From the NCBI GenBank assembly GCA_025997155.1, contig BNUF01000020.1, positions 1 through 23,046 on the forward strand: 23,046 bases of DNA, in the 5' to 3' direction. Below the pieces are notes generated by a model. That model made no database searches and was not told the DNA's origin. It saw only the letters and a list, made by a program, of their open reading frames with translations. The translations under genes were made by a program, and so were the position numbers. This stretch comes from Clostridia bacterium. GTDB lineage: Bacteria > Bacillota > Clostridia > Lachnospirales > WQUN01. Below, one piece after another: positions 1 to 7,977 of the stretch (positions are counted from its first letter, which is position 1; the number at the start of each line of letters is the position of its first letter).

Positions 1-127
1 CTCAGGTGGCTCGCGCCGTTTGGGAAACTGATTTTAACGCCCGCGTACCACGTGTTGTTTGAAGTCTTGAGGGTGAGGGGTATCGGGGCGGCATAAGCCG
101 CGTCGTCGGGATACCACTCGGAGGGGA
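1..127. repeat. Exact 127-bp direct repeat, copy A (at the window edge)
   Basis: Bases 1-127 are identical to 703-829. The match stops exactly at base 127 (next base C here, T in the other copy) and starts at the first base of the window. The two copies lie in the same frame of the large secreted-protein gene, 702 bp (234 codons) apart. A length of exactly 127 equals the largest default k-mer of a common short-read assembler, so an assembly-graph junction is likely. Confidence 0.95.
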
Positions 128-2786
128 CGCTGCCCGTTATCTTTATCGGAATATGCGTCAGCGCGGCGACTTTGCCCGCCCGCAGCGCGTCGCGTCCGCC
201 CGCGAAAAGCGGGACGCTCGGCGTGCCGAAATCCGAAAAATATACCGTTTGTCCGTATACCGTCGGGCTAGAGACAATAGACGTTATGTCTTGGGATACG
301 CTGGCCGCCTCTCTTTGCGCGAAAGTGTCGGGCATTGCGTCGCGGAGTTTCGCCTCGTCCGTTGAAATGTATATATTCGCAAAGGCACGTGCCTGCTGGT
401 CGAGAGGAAGCGAATTGTCCGTATACAAAATCTTCAGTCTGTCGATAAGGTTTCTGCCCGATATCGTGAACGAATAGTCGAAACTCACTTGCGTGTCGTT
501 CACGACGGGGTTATCGGCGACAATCCCCGACGGCGTTATCTTGTCACGCGGGGTAATGTCGTCAAGGGTGATGTTTGCGTAGGGCGACGGCATCTCTTCG
601 GAGGGGTCGACGTCCTTGTCGCCTAATTTTGTCGGGACGAGTACGGAAAAATACACTTTAGGGTATTTGAATTTGAAAACGCCCGTCGTCGTTTCGGGGG
701 TGCTCAGGTGGCTCGCGCCGTTTGGGAAACTGATTTTAACGCCCGCGTACCACGTGTTGTTTGAAGTCTTGAGGGTGAGGGGTATCGGGGCGGCATAAGC
801 CGCGTCGTCGGGATACCACTCGGAGGGGATTCCCGCAACAGGCAAAAGCGTGTACTGCGCGTTGTATATCGTGTTGCCGTCCGCGTCCTTGTCCTGCGTA
901 ATCCTCATTCTGATTTTCGCGTAGGTTTCGGGAACGGGCGGGTTTTTCGGCGCGTCACTCAGGCGCAGCTCGTATTCGACCTCCGCGTATCCTATTGGTG
1001 TGGGTTTTAACTTATCCAGTTTGAAATAGTTTTCAAGAGCCAAAGTCGTCCCCACGTCCCACTTGAAATCAAGCGAAAGGTTTGCGCGGGTGTAGTCGGT
1101 CTTAGTAATCGGGGTGAGTTCGATTACGCTTGCGTCAAACTCGTTCGGAAGCCCCACGCGGGTGTCCGACGGCGGTTTTATCTTAATATACTGGGACGCG
1201 GGAACAATGGTGTCGGGAGACGACCTCGGAACAAAGGTGAAGTAGTAGTTGCTCGACTGACTGTCTCCGTATATAGGTACCATCAGGATTTTTTTGTAAT
1301 CCGCGTTGGTATTGATTTCGATAGTCGCGACGGGGAGCGGGCCGGCGTTGCGGTTTGAGCGGAGCTGATACTCGCCGTGTCCCGCCTCGCCTCTATACGG
1401 GTAAAAATACACATAGTCGCCGTTTGTTCCGAGTGCGTACTGGATATATGTGTAAACTGTGCCAATCGGAAGCGTCGTAGTGCCGGGTTCAGGGTTTGCG
1501 CGGTCGCGCATAACGCCCGCCGCGTCCCTCATCAGCATAGGCGAGAAAACGACCGCGCTGAACATAGTGCTCGGCGCGACGCCGAAAACCTGTAATGTCG
1601 TTCTGTTCGCCGCGTCCTTGTTTATAATCGTCGAGTAGGAGGAATCGATTAGCCCCGCGTTAATACGGCTGTCTTCTATAATTGAGGGGGACGCGCCGAA
1701 AATGTCGTCGATTGTTAAGCCCCACGACGTGTTTGTCGTTTCTCCTCCGTTAAACCCTACGCTAAGCTGGAGTTCATACGAGCCTGGAGTTACCGCGCCG
1801 AACTGCTTCGCCGTGCCGTCCCATTCCAAAGGCTCGTCAAAAGAAATGTCAAGGCGCGTTTCCTTATCGCCCGCAACCGTATCGGGTTCGTCTAAGTTTT
1901 CGTTGATTACGTCGTCGCTCCTCGGGTCTAGGGGGTCGCGTCTGGAGTTGCGTCCGTCCCCCAAAAGGTCCGCGCCTATATTCGCGTAGGGTTCTGATTT
2001 TACAGAGCTTGTGTCGATACCTGTGAACACCTTTCGCAGGACGCTCACAACCGCGGCGCCCGCTCGGTCGACGTCGAGCGTGGCGGGGAAAATCCGCCCT
2101 TCCTCGATTCCGTCGGACATATAGTACATCTTGTTACCGTCCCAAAGAAGGGACACGTTCACTCCGTCATACTCAAAAGATATACCGTTTTTGATTGTGC
2201 CCCCGTATATATTGAACATTGCCGAATAGTGCTGGAGGTAGTTGGTAGGATTCCCGATTATCGGGTTGTCCTCGGGAGGTACGACGACTTGTTCCGTCCC
2301 GTCGGGGGACGCTGTGTTGAACTCGTTTAGCGTGTCGCCTTCAAAATCCTTGTAATCGTTATATTCAGGGCTTTTTTCGGGTTTGCCCGTGTGAATACGC
2401 AAAGCCGTGTTATCGGCGGAGTCAAGAGAAAACTCGACCGTAGCCTTATCCTTGGAAATCTTTGTTATGGTAACTTTTGCCAGCCTAGCCGAACCGAATT
2501 TCTCAAGGGGATAGGTCAGCTCATATTTTCCGTTATCGCCAAAATCCCACTCCGCCGAAAAAATGTCGGAGGGAATCAGTTGGTCCGTGGTACGCTCGGG
2601 CGCTATTTCTGTCGCGTTCATTCCGAGAAGCCACGTGGAGTTGTCGCGTTCGCCCGCGGACTGTATCTTAAACGAATCGGCGGTAAAAGCCGCAAAAACG
2701 CGTACAGGCGGAATCGTCCCAAAAATTATGGCGAACACCAATACAAAACTTATAGAAGATTTTCGTAGTTTTTTCAAGGTTTTCAT
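1..2786 (-). CDS. Very large secreted modular protein, N-terminal part (cut by the window's left edge)
   Basis: An uninterrupted frame runs from ATG at 2786 to base 1: 928 codons with no stop, so the C-terminus lies outside the window. Residues 1-32 form a Sec signal peptide (basic MKTLKKLRKS, a hydrophobic core, cleavage near VRVFA). I see no transmembrane helix or sortase motif in the visible part. The rest is rich in Asp, Thr, Pro and Tyr with beta-strand-like texture, and looks like fibronectin- or Ig-type modules. I do not recognise a catalytic domain. Residues about 653-695 (starting PSEWYPDDAAYAAP) recur identically at about 887-928, 234 residues later. ATG 2786 was chosen because a G-rich stretch precedes it; an in-frame ATG at 2798 is the alternative. 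The gene is separated from its right-hand neighbours by a tRNA and two terminators. It is probably a surface or extracellular protein; its function is unknown. Confidence 0.85.
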   Translation of the reverse strand, partial: MKTLKKLRKSSISFVLVFAIIFGTIPPVRVFAAFTADSFKIQSAGERDNSTWLLGMNATEIAPERTTDQLIPSDIFSAEWDFGDNGKYELTYPLEKFGSARLAKVTITKISKDKATVEFSLDSADNTALRIHTGKPEKSPEYNDYKDFEGDTLNEFNTASPDGTEQVVVPPEDNPIIGNPTNYLQHYSAMFNIYGGTIKNGISFEYDGVNVSLLWDGNKMYYMSDGIEEGRIFPATLDVDRAGAAVVSVLRKVFTGIDTSSVKSEPYANIGADLLGDGRNSRRDPLDPRSDDVINENLDEPDTVAGDKETRLDISFDEPLEWDGTAKQFGAVTPGSYELQLSVGFNGGETTNTSWGLTIDDIFGASPSIIEDSRINAGLIDSSYSTIINKDAANRTTLQVFGVAPSTMFSAVVFSPMLMRDAAGVMRDRANPEPGTTTLPIGTVYTYIQYALGTNGDYVYFYPYRGEAGHGEYQLRSNRNAGPLPVATIEINTNADYKKILMVPIYGDSQSSNYYFTFVPRSSPDTIVPASQYIKIKPPSDTRVGLPNEFDASVIELTPITKTDYTRANLSLDFKWDVGTTLALENYFKLDKLKPTPIGYAEVEYELRLSDAPKNPPVPETYAKIRMRITQDKDADGNTIYNAQYTLLPVAGIPSEWYPDDAAYAAPIPLTLKTSNNTWYAGVKISFPNGASHLSTPETTTGVFKFKYPKVYFSVLVPTKLGDKDVDPSEEMPSPYANITLDDITPRDKITPSGIVADNPVVNDTQVSFDYSFTISGRNLIDRLKILYTDNSLPLDQQARAFANIYISTDEAKLRDAMPDTFAQREAASVSQDITSIVSSPTVYGQTVYFSDFGTPSVPLFAGGRDALRAGKVAALTHIPIKITGSVPSEWYPDDAAYAAPIPLTLKTSNNTWYAGVKISFPNGASHL
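703..829. repeat. Exact 127-bp direct repeat, copy B
   Basis: This is the internal copy of the repeat at 1-127. It encodes residues about 653-695 of the large secreted protein. The sequence on both sides of the two copies differs where it can be compared, so the identical block is sharply bounded at its right end. Confidence 0.95.
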
Positions 2787-2821
2787 ACCCGCCCCCATAT
2801 AATCATAATATCTGCTTATAT

Positions 2822-2881: not shown

Positions 2882-2910
2882 TTGACAAGCGCGAAAATTG
2901 GTAATATAAT
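2882..2910 (+). promoter_or_regulatory. Consensus sigma-A promoter of tRNA-Leu
   Basis: TTGACA at 2882-2887 and TATAAT at 2905-2910 are separated by exactly 17 bases, a perfect consensus housekeeping promoter. It lies 24 bases upstream of the mature tRNA-Leu 5' end, as expected for a strongly expressed stable RNA. Confidence 0.9.
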
Positions 2911-3070: not shown

Positions 3071-3102
3071 AAAATCCGTTCACGACGGCATGAACGGATT
3101 TT
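3071..3102 (-). terminator. Intrinsic terminator of the PEGA-protein gene, containing its stop codon
   Basis: Bases 3071-3082 and 3091-3102 form a perfect 12-bp inverted repeat with an 8-base loop. Read on the minus strand the hairpin runs into a U-tract (plus-strand A-run 3068-3074). The TGA stop of the PEGA-protein gene (3080-3082) lies in the distal arm, so translation ends inside the hairpin. With the terminator at 3022-3062 it insulates two converging transcripts. Confidence 0.85.
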
Positions 3103-4555
3103 CTTCAAGTAGGATTAGCTCGTAGGACCATGTAGGGGTGCTCAGGGAAATGTCATAGTTGATGGATTTGTAACCCGACTTTTTGTAGGTGAGCGTGTGG
3201 TTGCCGTATTCAATGTTCGCGGTGCAGGGGGCGATGCCGATAAAACCGTTGTCGATATAGATTTCCGCGCCGTCGGGGGTTGAGGAGACGGAGAATTTGC
3301 ACATAAGGACTTCCTCGTCAAGGGTGATATTCAGCGCGTTTGATTTCTTGTCGATTGTGACGGTACTCTCCCACGCCAGAAAACCTTGTTTTTCGACACG
3401 CACGGTGTATGTGCCGTAGTAGAGTTCGATTGGGCGGGAGGCGTCGACTTCCGCGCCGTTAATCTTCACGGTAAACCCCGCGCGGTTGACTTTGAGGTTG
3501 AGAAGCCCCTTGTTTAGCTGCATCGAGGAAAGGTCGATAACCTCCGTCGCGTCACGCGGGAGCGTCACCTCCGTGTACATTGGGGCGTAGTTCGCGGCGG
3601 TGATTGTGACGCGGTGTCTGCCTTCGGCGACCTCAAGCCGTCCGCTGTCCGTGTTCACGGTAAGCTCGGTGTCGGTGCTGTTGATTTTTGTCGTGCTTTC
3701 GTCGTCGATTTCGATTGTTCCGTCCACCAGATTTTCTTTGTTAATAAACTCGATATATCCGTGTCCTTTTTCAAGAGTTACGCACCATACGAAATTTTGG
3801 TAAACCTTGAGAGAAAGAACGTCCGCGTTTGAAATGCTTGATATGTCAAATACAGAACCCTGACTCAGCGCGACGACTTGGTTCGTGTAGCTGAAAACGT
3901 CGTTGCCGATTGTGATTTTTCGGTTTATGGTGTCGGGGACAATGTTTGTCACGTTCTTAAATTCCTTTGCGTCACGCGAAAGAAACAACCGCGCGATATG
4001 GCTGTTGTCGTACTCCACGTCCACAAGGTCGCCGACGCTTATCTCGTCAAAAACAATAGCCTCGCCGTACTTGTTTTTAAGAATCGACGTGCCGTCCGTC
4101 TTGAGGAGGACATTATTGCCGTGGGTTATGTCGTATACCGTGAGGGTTTGCTCGTATTTGCTTAAGTTTTGCACGACGGCTGTCATAGCGTCGGAGGCTC
4201 GGGCGGGCGCAGCGGCGGCGGGAAGTTCCTCCGCCGCTTTGTTTGTCGGTTTTGCTAAGTTTTTCGCCGTCACTTCCTTGCTCCCCGAAAACGACTGGAA
4301 CATTAGCGCGAAAAGAACGATGCACCCGATAACGCCGATGCTTATCGTCACGGCAAAAAACATACTGTATTGCGATTTCTGGCGGACGGGCGTGGGCTGG
4401 GGGACTTTTCGCACGGGCTTTTTCCGCACCCCCGCGTATGTCACGACAGGGGGCGGCGTTCCCTTCCGCTGTTTGTTGTACGCGCTGCCTGGCGTATATA
4501 TAACCCCGTCCCGCTCATTCGGCGATTTCGGACGTTTCTTATCGTTATCCTTCAT
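3080..4555 (-). CDS. Single-pass membrane protein with PEGA-type repeats
   Basis: A 491-residue protein. Residues 1-62 are a basic, proline-rich, probably cytoplasmic tail (PPPVV, VRKKPVRKVPQPTP). Residues 65-88 form one transmembrane helix. An Ala/Pro linker follows, then a beta-rich extracytoplasmic region. The C-terminus holds three PEGA-like units: about 268-345, 350-415 and 418-485; the last is clearest (STPDGAEIYIDN, GYKS near 461). PEGA domains are extracytoplasmic beta modules often found in envelope proteins; no enzymatic role is implied. ATG 4555 was chosen over an upstream start at 4597 because AAAGAAGG lies about 7 bases before it and the longer form overlaps the preceding gene. 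It is the last gene of the minus-strand run: 13 bases follow the 45-codon gene, and a terminator overlaps its stop. It may bind the cell wall or the neighbouring secreted protein; that is inference. Confidence 0.85.
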   Translation of the reverse strand: MKDNDKKRPKSPNERDGVIYTPGSAYNKQRKGTPPPVVTYAGVRKKPVRKVPQPTPVRQKSQYSMFFAVTISIGVIGCIVLFALMFQSFSGSKEVTAKNLAKPTNKAAEELPAAAAPARASDAMTAVVQNLSKYEQTLTVYDITHGNNVLLKTDGTSILKNKYGEAIVFDEISVGDLVDVEYDNSHIARLFLSRDAKEFKNVTNIVPDTINRKITIGNDVFSYTNQVVALSQGSVFDISSISNADVLSLKVYQNFVWCVTLEKGHGYIEFINKENLVDGTIEIDDESTTKINSTDTELTVNTDSGRLEVAEGRHRVTITAANYAPMYTEVTLPRDATEVIDLSSMQLNKGLLNLKVNRAGFTVKINGAEVDASRPIELYYGTYTVRVEKQGFLAWESTVTIDKKSNALNITLDEEVLMCKFSVSSTPDGAEIYIDNGFIGIAPCTANIEYGNHTLTYKKSGYKSINYDISLSTPTWSYELILLEENPFMPS

Positions 4556-4568
4556 ACGAATACCTTCT

Positions 4569-4706
4569 TTACTTCTTTTCATCCTCGGCTTGAGCAACTA
4601 CCTTGTCTATAATCCGCAGAGCTTTTTCGTTCGCCTTGGCTTTGTCGTCGTCGTTCAAAACTTCCTGAAGAGAATACATCATAACCAACAGTTCATACTT
4701 TGTCAT
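4569..4706 (-). CDS. Small 45-residue helical protein of unknown function
   Basis: The protein starts MTKYELLVMMYSLQ and ends QAEDEKK. It is mostly charged and predicted helical, with no signal peptide or membrane segment. AAAGGCGGCG precedes the ATG at a normal distance. It lies 23 bases after the tyrosine-rich protein gene and 13 bases before the PEGA-protein gene, in the same direction. The good ribosome site and tight spacing support a real gene. I do not recognise the family. It could be a small cytoplasmic partner of the PEGA protein's basic tail, but this is speculation from position alone. Confidence 0.7.
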   Translation of the reverse strand: MTKYELLVMMYSLQEVLNDDDKAKANEKALRIIDKVVAQAEDEKK

Positions 4707-4729: not shown

Positions 4730-6265
4730 TTAGATAGGAGCCGCCGTACTTCTTGTAATCACGAGGGAATAATACGTCGTTCTCTCGCCGTCGGGGGAGC
4801 GGACGCTGAAGTATACGGTGTTGTCGCCGACGGCAAGCGGAACGGAGGCGTACACCGTGTTCGCGAAATTCGAGTTTGTGCCGAAGAACTGCACCCACGC
4901 GCTTGATACGGTAGGGGTTATATCGTTTCTTGATATTTCCGAAACCGTGTTGGCGACGGTTATGTTTCCTCTTTTCGGGTTATAGTACGATTCGCCGTTT
5001 CCCGAAAACGCGGGCGACAGGCTGAAAACCCGCGAAATATCCGTCGCGTAGGAATCGTAGGAGGACGCGCCGATTACAAACCCAGCGGAGCGGGACTGCT
5101 CGACGTTGTTCACATACGGTACGACGCGGTACGAACCTGAACGCGTACTTCTTGATGTGTACACGGTGAACGTAATTTTTGTGTCACTCTCCGAATTTCT
5201 GCTCACGGAGATTCCGTTGCCGTTTGTCACGTCGTTATACCTGTTTCCGTATTCGTTCGAACCCCACGGATACGAATTGTAGTTATAATTATAGTTGTAA
5301 TCGTAGGACGGATACGGATTGTATGGGTCGTATGGCGTATAATTTGACATATTATTTCCGTACTCATAGTAGGACGCGGGATAGTATCCGTTTCTGTTGT
5401 AAAATTCCAGATATGTCACAGGATAACGCCCGTATTGGTCATAATACTGGTAGTAATCTGTCGGGAAATACCGAAACCGCGAGTAGTAGTCGGAATACAA
5501 CAAAGGATACTGTGAATAACCATACCCGTTGTTTTGATAATAGTTGTTCGAATAGTCGTTGTAATAATCATAATATGACGTTGGGTATCTGCCGTATCTC
5601 GAATAGTAATCCGAGTATGTTGACGGATAGTATCTCAAATCCGCGTAGAAATCGTAGTAATCTGTCGGGTAGTAACCGTACCTGTTGTTATAATCCGAAT
5701 AATAGTAGGGATATGTACGGCTTGAATTGTAGTAGTAGTAGTCGTCGTAATAATACCCGTTGTTATAGTAGTAGTCGTCGTAATAATACCCGTTGTTATA
5801 GTAGTAGTCGTTATAATACCCGCCGTACCAGTCATTGTAATTCGAGGAATGGTCGAGGTCGTACACCCGCAGTTCAACGGAATTGTTCAAGTCCGTCCCC
5901 GTTATCGTCACAGTCGTGTTGTTCCCGCGTGTGAGGCGTGACGGGCTGATGCTGACCCCCGTGATTACAGGGTCGGGGACTTTTTCTTTGCCCGAACTGC
6001 CCGAAGAGTTTCCCGTGTCCTCTGTGGGCTTGTCGTTGTCATTCGGATTCACATACACGATTTCTTCCGCGGGGACATATTCGGGCGCGGCAGGCGCGGG
6101 TTCTGGCGTTTCGGACGCGGGTTTGCCCACAACGCCCGTGACCCCAGGCACATATGTTTTCGTATTATTCGGTATCGTTTTCGCGGGCGTTTCGGCATAC
6201 GCGAAAACCGACGACCCCGCCGCAATACAAACAGTCAGTAATATAGATAATATCCTCTTATTCAT
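4730..6265 (-). CDS. Secreted tyrosine-rich repeat protein with Ig-like and cadherin-like domains
   Basis: A 511-residue exported protein. It has a signal peptide (1-25, cleavage near AYA-ET) and a Pro/Glu/Asn linker to about 97. The first half of an IPT/Ig-like fold spans about 98-137 (TVTITGTDL); the second half resumes at about 351-400. Between them is a 210-residue tyrosine-rich insertion: I count 76 Tyr in residues 141-340. It begins with 11-residue units (YYYNNGYYYDD) and continues with seven 14-residue units whose prolines fall at 200, 214, 228, 254, 268, 282 and 296, roughly [YR][YF]P-x-x-Y-x-[DEQ]-[YF]-Y-x-x-[YF]-[GR]. The C-terminus (about 410-505) resembles a cadherin-like beta-sandwich (PF12733 type; VGDNTVYFSV, YYSLVITR). 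The start has GGAAGGAAG upstream and follows the DJ-1-like gene by 17 bases. Probably surface-exposed or matrix-like; dityrosine cross-linking or stacking adhesion is conceivable but unproven. Confidence 0.88.
   Translation of the reverse strand: MNKRILSILLTVCIAAGSSVFAYAETPAKTIPNNTKTYVPGVTGVVGKPASETPEPAPAAPEYVPAEEIVYVNPNDNDKPTEDTGNSSGSSGKEKVPDPVITGVSISPSRLTRGNNTTVTITGTDLNNSVELRVYDLDHSSNYNDWYGGYYNDYYYNNGYYYDDYYYNNGYYYDDYYYYNSSRTYPYYYSDYNNRYGYYPTDYYDFYADLRYYPSTYSDYYSRYGRYPTSYYDYYNDYSNNYYQNNGYGYSQYPLLYSDYYSRFRYFPTDYYQYYDQYGRYPVTYLEFYNRNGYYPASYYEYGNNMSNYTPYDPYNPYPSYDYNYNYNYNSYPWGSNEYGNRYNDVTNGNGISVSRNSESDTKITFTVYTSRSTRSGSYRVVPYVNNVEQSRSAGFVIGASSYDSYATDISRVFSLSPAFSGNGESYYNPKRGNITVANTVSEISRNDITPTVSSAWVQFFGTNSNFANTVYASVPLAVGDNTVYFSVRSPDGERTTYYSLVITRSTAAPI
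5735..5811 (-). repeat. 33-bp tandem repeat in the tyrosine-rich coding region
   Basis: Bases 5735-5767 and 5768-5800 are identical 33-bp units, followed by 11 bases of a third. The period is 11 codons, encoding YYYNNGYYYDD-type units. Identity at the base level points to recent slippage or recombination, so copy number may vary between strains. Confidence 0.9.
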
Positions 6266-6840: not shown

Positions 6841-7977
6841 TTAAATTCTCAATATCTTCCCGCTGCCGCCGCAATGCCCGCAACTCTCCGTCAAAAGCCG
6901 TTCAAGCGAATCCCCCGACTTCTTCCTTGTGAGTATAAAAATCCCGACGTCGGTGACGCTTATCACCTCGGCGGAGAACCTGTCCTTTGAAAGACACTCC
7001 GACAGATACGCCCTAAGCTCCTCGTTTTGCTCCTTCTCCTCGGGGTTGATAAAATCGACTATGATTATCCCCGAAAGGTTGCGAAGCCTAAGCTGGCAGG
7101 CGATTTCCGCCGCCGCCTCAAGGTTGATTTTTCGGATAATCTCGCCCCGCCCGTTGCCGCGTGTGCATTTCCCCGAATTCACGTCAACGACGACGCAAGC
7201 CTCCGTCTGTTCTATTATAATACAGCCGCCGCACTTTAGCCACACTTTTTTATTCAAACCTTCGCGAATCTGTTCCTCTATCCCGAAATACCTGAAAATA
7301 TTTACTTCGTTGTCAAAAAATGTATAATCACGGAAGGGCGTGTTTATTATATACTCGTCGGCGGGAATCCCCGAAACCCTTGCTATGGCGCGGGCAAGCG
7401 GACTGTTTTCGGCGCGGATAAGCTTCGGCGCGGTCTCCGTTTGCGCCGATTTCACGACCTCCCGCGCCTGCGAAACAAGCCGCCCTATCTCCGTTTCAAT
7501 AAAAGCCTCGTCCTTGTGCGCGCTGTTCGTGCGGATTACCGCGCTATACCCCTCGGGCAGATACTTTTGATAAATCTGCTTAAGCCGCTCCCGCTCCCGT
7601 TTCCCCTCGATTTTTTTTGAAACCGCCAAAGGCGTGTATTTCTTCGGAACAAGCAAAACCGCGTGCAAACTCGTGAACGAAATTTCCTCCGTCAAATACG
7701 CGCCCTTTGTCCCCACGGGGTCTTTGAGCGCCTGAACGAGAATATACGACCCCCGCTTAACTTTTTGGTCAACCTGCAAAAACGCCTGTTTCTCAAGCCC
7801 TATGTCGATAAACGCGAAATGTGTCGGGAGCATATTTTTCACGACTCCAAGGTAGATATTGCCAATTATAGAAACGTTTACCTTGTCCTCGACAATAAGC
7901 TCCCGAAGTACCCCGTCCTCAAGATACGCGACCCTTGCGCTTTTTTCTCCGTCGTCTATTACTATCTTCGTCTCCAT
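6841..7977 (-). CDS. rng: Ribonuclease G/E family endoribonuclease
   Basis: A 378-residue RNase E/G-type endonuclease that cleaves single-stranded RNA in rRNA maturation or mRNA decay. An S1-like domain starts near residue 37 (GNIYLGVVKNMLP, FIDIGLEKQAFL). The catalytic acidic residues are Asp265 (VVVDVNSGK) and Asp308 (IIIVDFINP), which bind the metal in this family. The C-terminal CGHCGGSG (Cys366 and Cys369) is the zinc-link that joins subunits. It is shorter than the roughly 490-residue E. coli RNase G and lacks the RNase E degradosome tail. ATG 7977 overlaps the upstream DUF2344 stop by one base (TGATG), indicating translational coupling. In many Clostridia this gene follows TIGR03960 and DUF2344 genes and precedes rplU; here no rplU follows, and DJ-1 and surface-protein genes take that place. 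Confidence 0.95.
   Translation of the reverse strand: METKIVIDDGEKSARVAYLEDGVLRELIVEDKVNVSIIGNIYLGVVKNMLPTHFAFIDIGLEKQAFLQVDQKVKRGSYILVQALKDPVGTKGAYLTEEISFTSLHAVLLVPKKYTPLAVSKKIEGKRERERLKQIYQKYLPEGYSAVIRTNSAHKDEAFIETEIGRLVSQAREVVKSAQTETAPKLIRAENSPLARAIARVSGIPADEYIINTPFRDYTFFDNEVNIFRYFGIEEQIREGLNKKVWLKCGGCIIIEQTEACVVVDVNSGKCTRGNGRGEIIRKINLEAAAEIACQLRLRNLSGIIIVDFINPEEKEQNEELRAYLSECLSKDRFSAEVISVTDVGIFILTRKKSGDSLERLLTESCGHCGGSGKILRI

Follow-up and report, generated by a model that had tools for sequence, protein, structure and literature searches.

Background

IPT/TIG immunoglobulin (Ig)-like domains and Cadherin-like beta-sandwich domains are types common outside the cell. Here we analyse a 511-residue open reading frame (ORF) on the minus strand, at positions 4730 to 6265, whose predicted secreted product carries both, with a tyrosine-rich insert that probably splits the first of the two domains. 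The ORF lies in a window of 23,046 nucleotides, the whole stretch of DNA analysed, which is contig BNUF01000020.1 (C20 in our numbering) of the Clostridia bacterium assembly GCA_025997155.1. The source genome has a size of 3.05 Mb in 502 contigs and is 77% complete.

Four described systems come closest. The first is the IPT/TIG domain itself (PF01833 in Pfam, NF058597 in NCBIfam): the beginning of the profile aligns with residues 105-135, and the joined flanks of the insert match positions 5-77 of 84, whereas here the fold takes in 211 extra residues and the intact protein scores below both cut-offs. The second, the Cadherin-like family PF12733, is matched above its cut-off by residues 436-505 when the domain is scanned alone, but the match begins at profile position 34 of 89, the first third having diverged or being missing. 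The bovine antibodies with an ultralong complementarity-determining region (CDR) H3, in which a very long loop inserted in an Ig fold serves for binding, offer an analogy that implies no homology. Tyrosines are prominent in that CDR H3, which has a disulfide knob. In the protein studied here, unlike in these antibodies, the loop occupies another position in the fold and consists of a repeat array without a disulfide knob. Finally, in the 'periscope proteins' (PMC8201768), in-frame DNA repeats could alter the length of a surface-displayed segment, as they could here; the repeats of those proteins are reported to be whole folded domains, in contrast to the 11- and 14-residue units found here inside a domain, in one known genome.

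The ORF and the parts of its product are as follows.

4730..6265, minus strand: ORF of 511 residues, predicted secreted protein with a split IPT/TIG domain and a Tyr-rich insert, then a Cadherin-like domain (ORF, sequence and profile scans)
5852..5977, minus strand: first part of the IPT/TIG Ig-like domain, residues 97-138, with modelled strands at 100-107, 116-124 and 130-136 (TIG profile 5-36 of 84)
5714..5845, minus strand: zone of 11-residue YYYNNGYYYDD units, residues 141-184 (sequence; 33-bp repeat at 5733-5822)
5546..5713, minus strand: units 1-4 of the 14-residue repeat, residues 185-240 (proline register; four predicted helices)
5510..5545, minus strand: 12-residue spacer, residues 241-252 (sequence)
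5342..5509, minus strand: units 5-8 of the 14-residue repeat, residues 253-308 (proline register)
5231..5341, minus strand: tail of the insert, Tyr/Asn/Pro-rich with YNYNYNYN, residues 309-345 (sequence)
5060..5218, minus strand: second part of the IPT/TIG domain, residues 350-402, with modelled strands at 352-359, 363-370, 379-385 and 396-400 (joined-flank profile test; structural alignments)
4733..5062, minus strand: Cadherin-like beta-sandwich domain PF12733, residues 402-511, best stretch 436-505 (profile scan; model below 50 in predicted local distance difference test score, pLDDT)

Eight proline-phased units of 14 residues

Residues 141-340 contain 76 tyrosines, exactly the number given in an earlier note on this DNA, together with 26 Asn, 18 Asp, 17 Ser and 13 Gly per 200 residues; outside residues 138-350, 16 tyrosines are found in 298 residues. 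The same note had counted seven 14-residue units phased by proline. The phasing is real, but the units are eight, in two runs of four. All start with (Y/F)P, at residues 185, 199, 213 and 227, then, after the spacer NYYQNNGYGYSQ, at 253, 267, 281 and 295, so that the unit prolines are residues 186, 200, 214 and 228, then 254, 268, 282 and 296. Pairs of prolines 14 residues apart number seven in residues 138-345; 20,000 shuffles of the same stretch averaged 0.70 such pairs and never exceeded 5. Six of these pairs lie within the two runs, and the last (319-333) is outside the eight units. A rough consensus for the unit is Y-P-(T/S)-x-Y-x-(D/E)-(Y/F)-Y-x-x-Y-G-x, in which the proline and Tyr5 are present in all eight copies, Thr/Ser3 and Gly13 in four of the eight.

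The two runs (residues 185-240 and 253-308) are identical at 30 of 56 positions, whereas 20,000 shuffles averaged 9.5 identities and reached 20 at most. Unit types alternate, with 7.0 identities within a type against 5.4 between types, and no other split did as well as the alternating one (2 of 70 labelings, which are one split and its mirror). This likeness among the odd-numbered units, and among the even-numbered ones, is a sign of a 28-residue pair, and suggests that the 14-mers work as 28-residue helix pairs. Copying of a whole 56-residue block, from units 1-4 to units 5-8, was considered as well and not kept: among the 24 possible orders of the second four units, 4 reach at least 30 identities; the true order has 30, and one of the others has 31.

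Among all pairs of 14-mers, identical residues are encoded by different codons in 106 of 170 cases, and in 19 of 30 when the two runs are compared. The nonsynonymous divergence (dN) between the runs is 0.40; the synonymous one (dS) was returned as not computable, which we read as saturation. In the 14-mers, amino acids have thus been retained through the scrambling of synonymous sites, a pattern that speaks for selection at the protein level.

The 11-residue YYYNNGYYYDD units of the earlier note are also present, as two full copies and one partial, and appear at the DNA level as a 33-bp tandem repeat (positions 5733-5822, 2.8 copies, 95% matches). Because these copies are nearly identical as DNA, the array is probably recent, and separate from the 14-mers. 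Judging from the nucleotides, near-identical in the 11-mers but with differing codons in the 14-mers, the two kinds of repeat seem not to be of the same age.

Probable helical form of the units

Over residues 185-308, the autocorrelation of aromatic residues peaks at spacings of 7 (z 3.0), 11 (2.4), 14 (4.1) and 18 (1.8), with a small excess of 0.9 each at 3 and 4, and dips at 2 (z −3.8), 9, 12, 16 and 20. The best aromatic angle falls between 85 and 105 degrees in seven of the eight units. Because repeats inflate such z values, the column profile of the eight units was tested by permutation. The aromatic moment of the columns peaks at 100 degrees, the angle of an alpha-helix, and nothing notable is seen at 160-180 degrees. 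This 100-degree moment was reached by 0.5% of the permutations for columns 3-12 and 1.3% for 13 columns; adding the aliphatic residues gave 0.8% and 1.5%.

Residues 182-244 (63 residues, units 1-4) were then modelled with AlphaFold, with residues 250-312 as a second row. Four helices were predicted, at 187-196, 201-210, 217-224 and 229-240, each beginning one to three residues past a repeat proline. The mean pLDDT is 64.6 (68-73 at positions 11-50) and the predicted template modelling score 0.41. How the helices pack against one another should not be trusted in this model. A Foldseek search with this model of modest confidence gave no match in the PDB, and three rows in a viral library at E 5.4-9.9. 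Taking spacing, permutations and model together, we find it likely that the 14-mers are helical, a form we grade as partly supported.

An Ig-like domain probably split by the insert

The insert, of 211 residues, falls between the third and fourth predicted strands of the IPT/TIG fold. The intact protein scores 18.2 bits against PF01833, over residues 105-135 only, below the gathering score of 20.9; cut out, the first half gives 24.6 bits. When residues 97-138 were joined to 350-402, the score rose to 28.0 bits over profile positions 5-77 of 84, compared to 21.1-23.6 with nine shuffled second halves. Against NF058597, the intact protein stays below the cut-off, and the joined flanks reach 29.5 bits for a cut-off of 30. 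A Foldseek search of the full-length model returned nothing below E 3.2; a second look at its list shows Ig-like structures that align across both halves, spanning 97..388, of this low-confidence model, in which the last strand of the second part (396-400) has a pLDDT of about 31. We conclude that residues 97-138 and 350-402 are probably one IPT/TIG Ig-like domain split by the insert.

Scanned alone, residues 402-511 score 27.1 bits against PF12733 (cut-off 24.2; 24.9 bits in the genome search), so that the cadherin-like domain placed after the Ig fold by the earlier note is supported. The family is absent from the report of the whole-protein scan (E ≤ 1). As PF12733 and the first TIG half both score higher when cut out, we suspect that the Tyr-rich composition lowers the profile scores of the intact protein.

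Search for relatives

Pieces of the insert (residues 141-345, 185-308 and 141-184) matched no Pfam or NCBIfam family, choline- and glucan-binding (YG) repeats included, at a limit of E 10, with HMMER filters that drop most matches above about E 0.1. The 14-residue units had no sequence match in the PDB at E ≤ 10, and PHROGs gave none at E ≤ 1. In the libraries searched, the insert thus matched no described family, in keeping with the earlier note, which knew of none with this layout. A profile search with the 14-residue repeat, the check advised at that time, was run with a hidden Markov model (A1) and produced no convincing relative. There was no match in 37 other genomes at family level (E ≤ 0.01) or in 390 genomes at class level (E ≤ 0.001), and two weak matches each in 391 other genomes at order level and 397 others at phylum level (E ≤ 0.01); these sets overlap, and in the family search the genus is represented by its own genome alone. 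The four weak matches score 19-20 bits, compared to 91-104 for the protein itself, and no repeat array was seen in the two most Tyr-dense frames listed for each of these loci. We take them as chance.

In a clustered-protein search (about 5.8 billion proteins, with a sensitivity set by shared five-residue words), at least 7,989 candidates were scored for the whole protein and, among the matches listed, only the protein itself appeared; the same held for residues 183-310 (156 candidates) and 345-511 (628 candidates). Compared with 60 relatives, the whole protein had one outside match, over residues 410-506 (G054, E 1.5×10−5). The joined flanks (97-138 and 350-511) had four matches in the 37 other family genomes (E 5.3×10−4 to 0.09, limit 0.1), all to the last domain of the query. 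At none of these five loci does the longest frame contain a 100-residue stretch with more than 8 tyrosines, and such weak matches to the last domain are as expected of a common domain. Phage and plasmid records gave no match. Among viral contigs, six pattern matches were obtained, of which none was confirmed, and the unit pattern was unmatched.

Orthologues were also sought through the neighbouring PEGA gene, whose product is found in 37 of 41 genomes, its own included. Stretches were taken from 20 of the 36 other genomes, some shortened by contig ends, and held no ORF with a BLAST match to the protein; this route to orthologues was abandoned. In the 20 stretches around PEGA homologues, the sole further match to the listed genes of the window was one weak match to Mbl.

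A strict DNA pattern of one unit, run over a species collection, was found in two Dependentiae genomes only, once in each. These proteins (L055, positions 7322-7368, and L056, 3460-3506) share one copy of YPxxYYDYYxxYGxYP, that is a 14-residue unit and the next Tyr-Pro, but the unit is single, lies near a Cys-rich end, belongs to no array and is part of another kind of protein. Because about one chance match of this pattern is expected in the collection, by a rough estimate, the resemblance is probably convergent. Titles and abstract openings in the literature revealed no paper on such a protein. As far as seen in these sequence searches, the protein appears restricted to one lineage, with no relative detected.

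Weighing of the readings

The anatomy described above is fairly well supported. As to function, the protein may well be a lineage-restricted secreted surface protein bearing a Tyr-faced helical module for binding or cohesion on an Ig scaffold. In a surface or matrix protein of this kind, the IPT/TIG domain would serve as scaffold for a display loop of 211 residues, with the eight 14-residue helix-turn units as its core. Proline, often with Thr/Ser, would start each short helix, an often-Gly residue would end it, and the aromatics at unit positions 5, 8, 9 and 12 would form a face. The 11-residue units and the YNYN tail would flank this core as flexible, possibly length-variable connectors. The Tyr-rich faces could then provide non-covalent binding or cohesion to envelope glycans, other cell-surface material or copies of the protein itself. 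A make-up of Tyr, Asn, Asp, Gly and Ser resembles that of antibody loops and carbohydrate-binding surfaces, and non-covalent binding or cohesion is favoured because the insert has this antibody-loop-like make-up and sits in an Ig fold as does the ultralong bovine CDR H3. Export, exposure and binding or cohesion are inferred from the signal-like start (see below) and the domain types. Only tentatively would we go further and regard the array as a new class of alpha-helical repeat, in which Tyr-faced 14-residue helix-turn units, in 28-residue pairs, form a display loop in an IPT/Ig domain with a length-variable stalk, as a bacterial counterpart to the ultralong loop of the antibodies.

Two results speak against the favoured reading. 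In the full-length model, the insert has a pLDDT of 23-33 and no secondary structure. Moreover, when the flanks were joined at other residues (97-141 and 346-402), PF01833 gave 24.1 bits, within the 20.6-24.5 spanned by five shuffles and no higher than the 24.6 of the first half by itself. Of two joints, one therefore beats all nine of its shuffles and the other brings no gain on TIG; the finding named in the earlier note as refuting it, that residues 98-137 and 351-400 are not parts of a single domain, did not arise, and the single IPT/Ig domain in two halves suggested by that note probably holds.

The main rival to the helical module, though a rather improbable one in our view, is that the whole insert is a disordered, low-complexity Tyr/Asn/Asp/Gly-rich segment without a fixed fold, acting as a multivalent Tyr-Tyr sticker-and-spacer that forms a matrix or separates into a phase. 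The composition of residues 141-340 and the featureless insert of the full-length model agree with it, and the 11-mer zone and the YNYN tail look the part. The strict 14-residue proline register, the alternation of units, the helical spacing of aromatics and the four predicted helices are more order than such a segment needs.

That the Tyr/Asn-rich units form extracellular cross-beta fibres, as a functional amyloid, is unlikely. Tyr/Asn richness and tandem repetition would suit it, and YNYNYNYN (residues 323-330) could be a strand. However, aromatics two residues apart are under-represented among the 14-mers and the moment is absent at 160-180 degrees, a proline recurs every 14 residues, and no strand is predicted in the insert, either in the full-length model or in the 63 residues folded alone. 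The amyloid-like strands suggested previously for the 14-residue units fit poorly with a helical aromatic spacing and with the only model of four units, which shows four short helices.

Just as doubtful is a neutral expansion by replication slippage, leaving an insert without selected function. The nearly identical 33-bp array is what slippage would leave, and no orthologue keeping the insert was found, but the 14-mers keep their residues with differing codons and the frame is open throughout, so that slippage may fit the 11-mers and not the 14-mers.

A tough coat made by oxidation of tyrosines to dityrosine, a cross-link mentioned in the earlier note and in keeping with the very high Tyr density, is very unlikely, since the host is probably anaerobic and neither a PF00141 peroxidase nor a PF07732 multicopper oxidase was found in the 77%-complete genome (in 14 control genomes, they were found in 5 and 8, respectively; other oxidases were not searched).

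The gene and its neighbourhood

Two further features precede the IPT/TIG domain in the protein.

6191..6265, minus strand: putative signal peptide, residues 1-25 (by eye: a charged start and a hydrophobic run, with A-x-A ahead of position 25; helix 4-15 in the full-length model)
5978..6190, minus strand: Pro/Glu/Ser-rich linker, residues 26-96 (sequence; pLDDT below 50)

The frame is open for 511 residues from an ATG, with no internal stop, and a GGAAGGA run upstream resembles a ribosome-binding site. The N-terminus, MNKRILSILLTVCIAAGSSVFAYAE, reads as a putative signal peptide by rule of thumb. The gene starts 17 bp after the end of a DJ-1 gene, and is followed in the same direction by a short ORF, then by the gene for the PEGA-domain protein. 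Despite the absence of listed minus-strand terminator-like sites between 6947 and 2700, co-transcription with the same-strand neighbours is only possible, because the list has promoter-like sites on this strand at 4706, 5841 and 5565. The G+C content at third codon positions is 0.576 in the repeat part, close to that of four neighbouring genes (0.599-0.662).

The short ORF (4569-4706, minus strand) encodes 45 Lys/Asp/Glu-rich residues behind a possible ribosome-binding site, and the PEGA-repeat protein (3080-4597, minus strand) has one likely membrane span, by eye. A long, secreted-looking ORF (3-2798, minus strand) is cut by the contig end and has no Pfam (E ≤ 1) or NCBIfam (E ≤ 0.1) match. 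Bases 1-127 of the contig are repeated exactly at 703-829, duplicating a stretch of this truncated ORF, which looks like a k-mer overlap left by the assembler at the contig end. A sigma-70-type promoter match at 2882-2910 (plus strand) is perfect (12 of 12), with opposing genes on both sides. Elsewhere, the window encodes RNase G, TIGR03960 and TIGR03936 proteins, and MreB/Mbl-like and FlgF/FlgG-like proteins named by eye from their translations, a set of genes that points to a clostridial lineage.

Significance

Seen as a variant of the repeat-bearing Ig surface proteins, the protein is an unusual orphan, and with no relatives detected under any reading the generality of the lesson is limited. 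Were the insert disordered, it would represent a bacterial sticker sequence of unusual Tyr richness. Under the helical reading, if true, the array would be a regular repeat fold built almost wholly from tyrosine packing, which would inform work on aromatic cores and the design of adhesive repeat proteins, and the protein would clearly exemplify how an Ig domain in bacteria can hold a very long inserted loop for binding.
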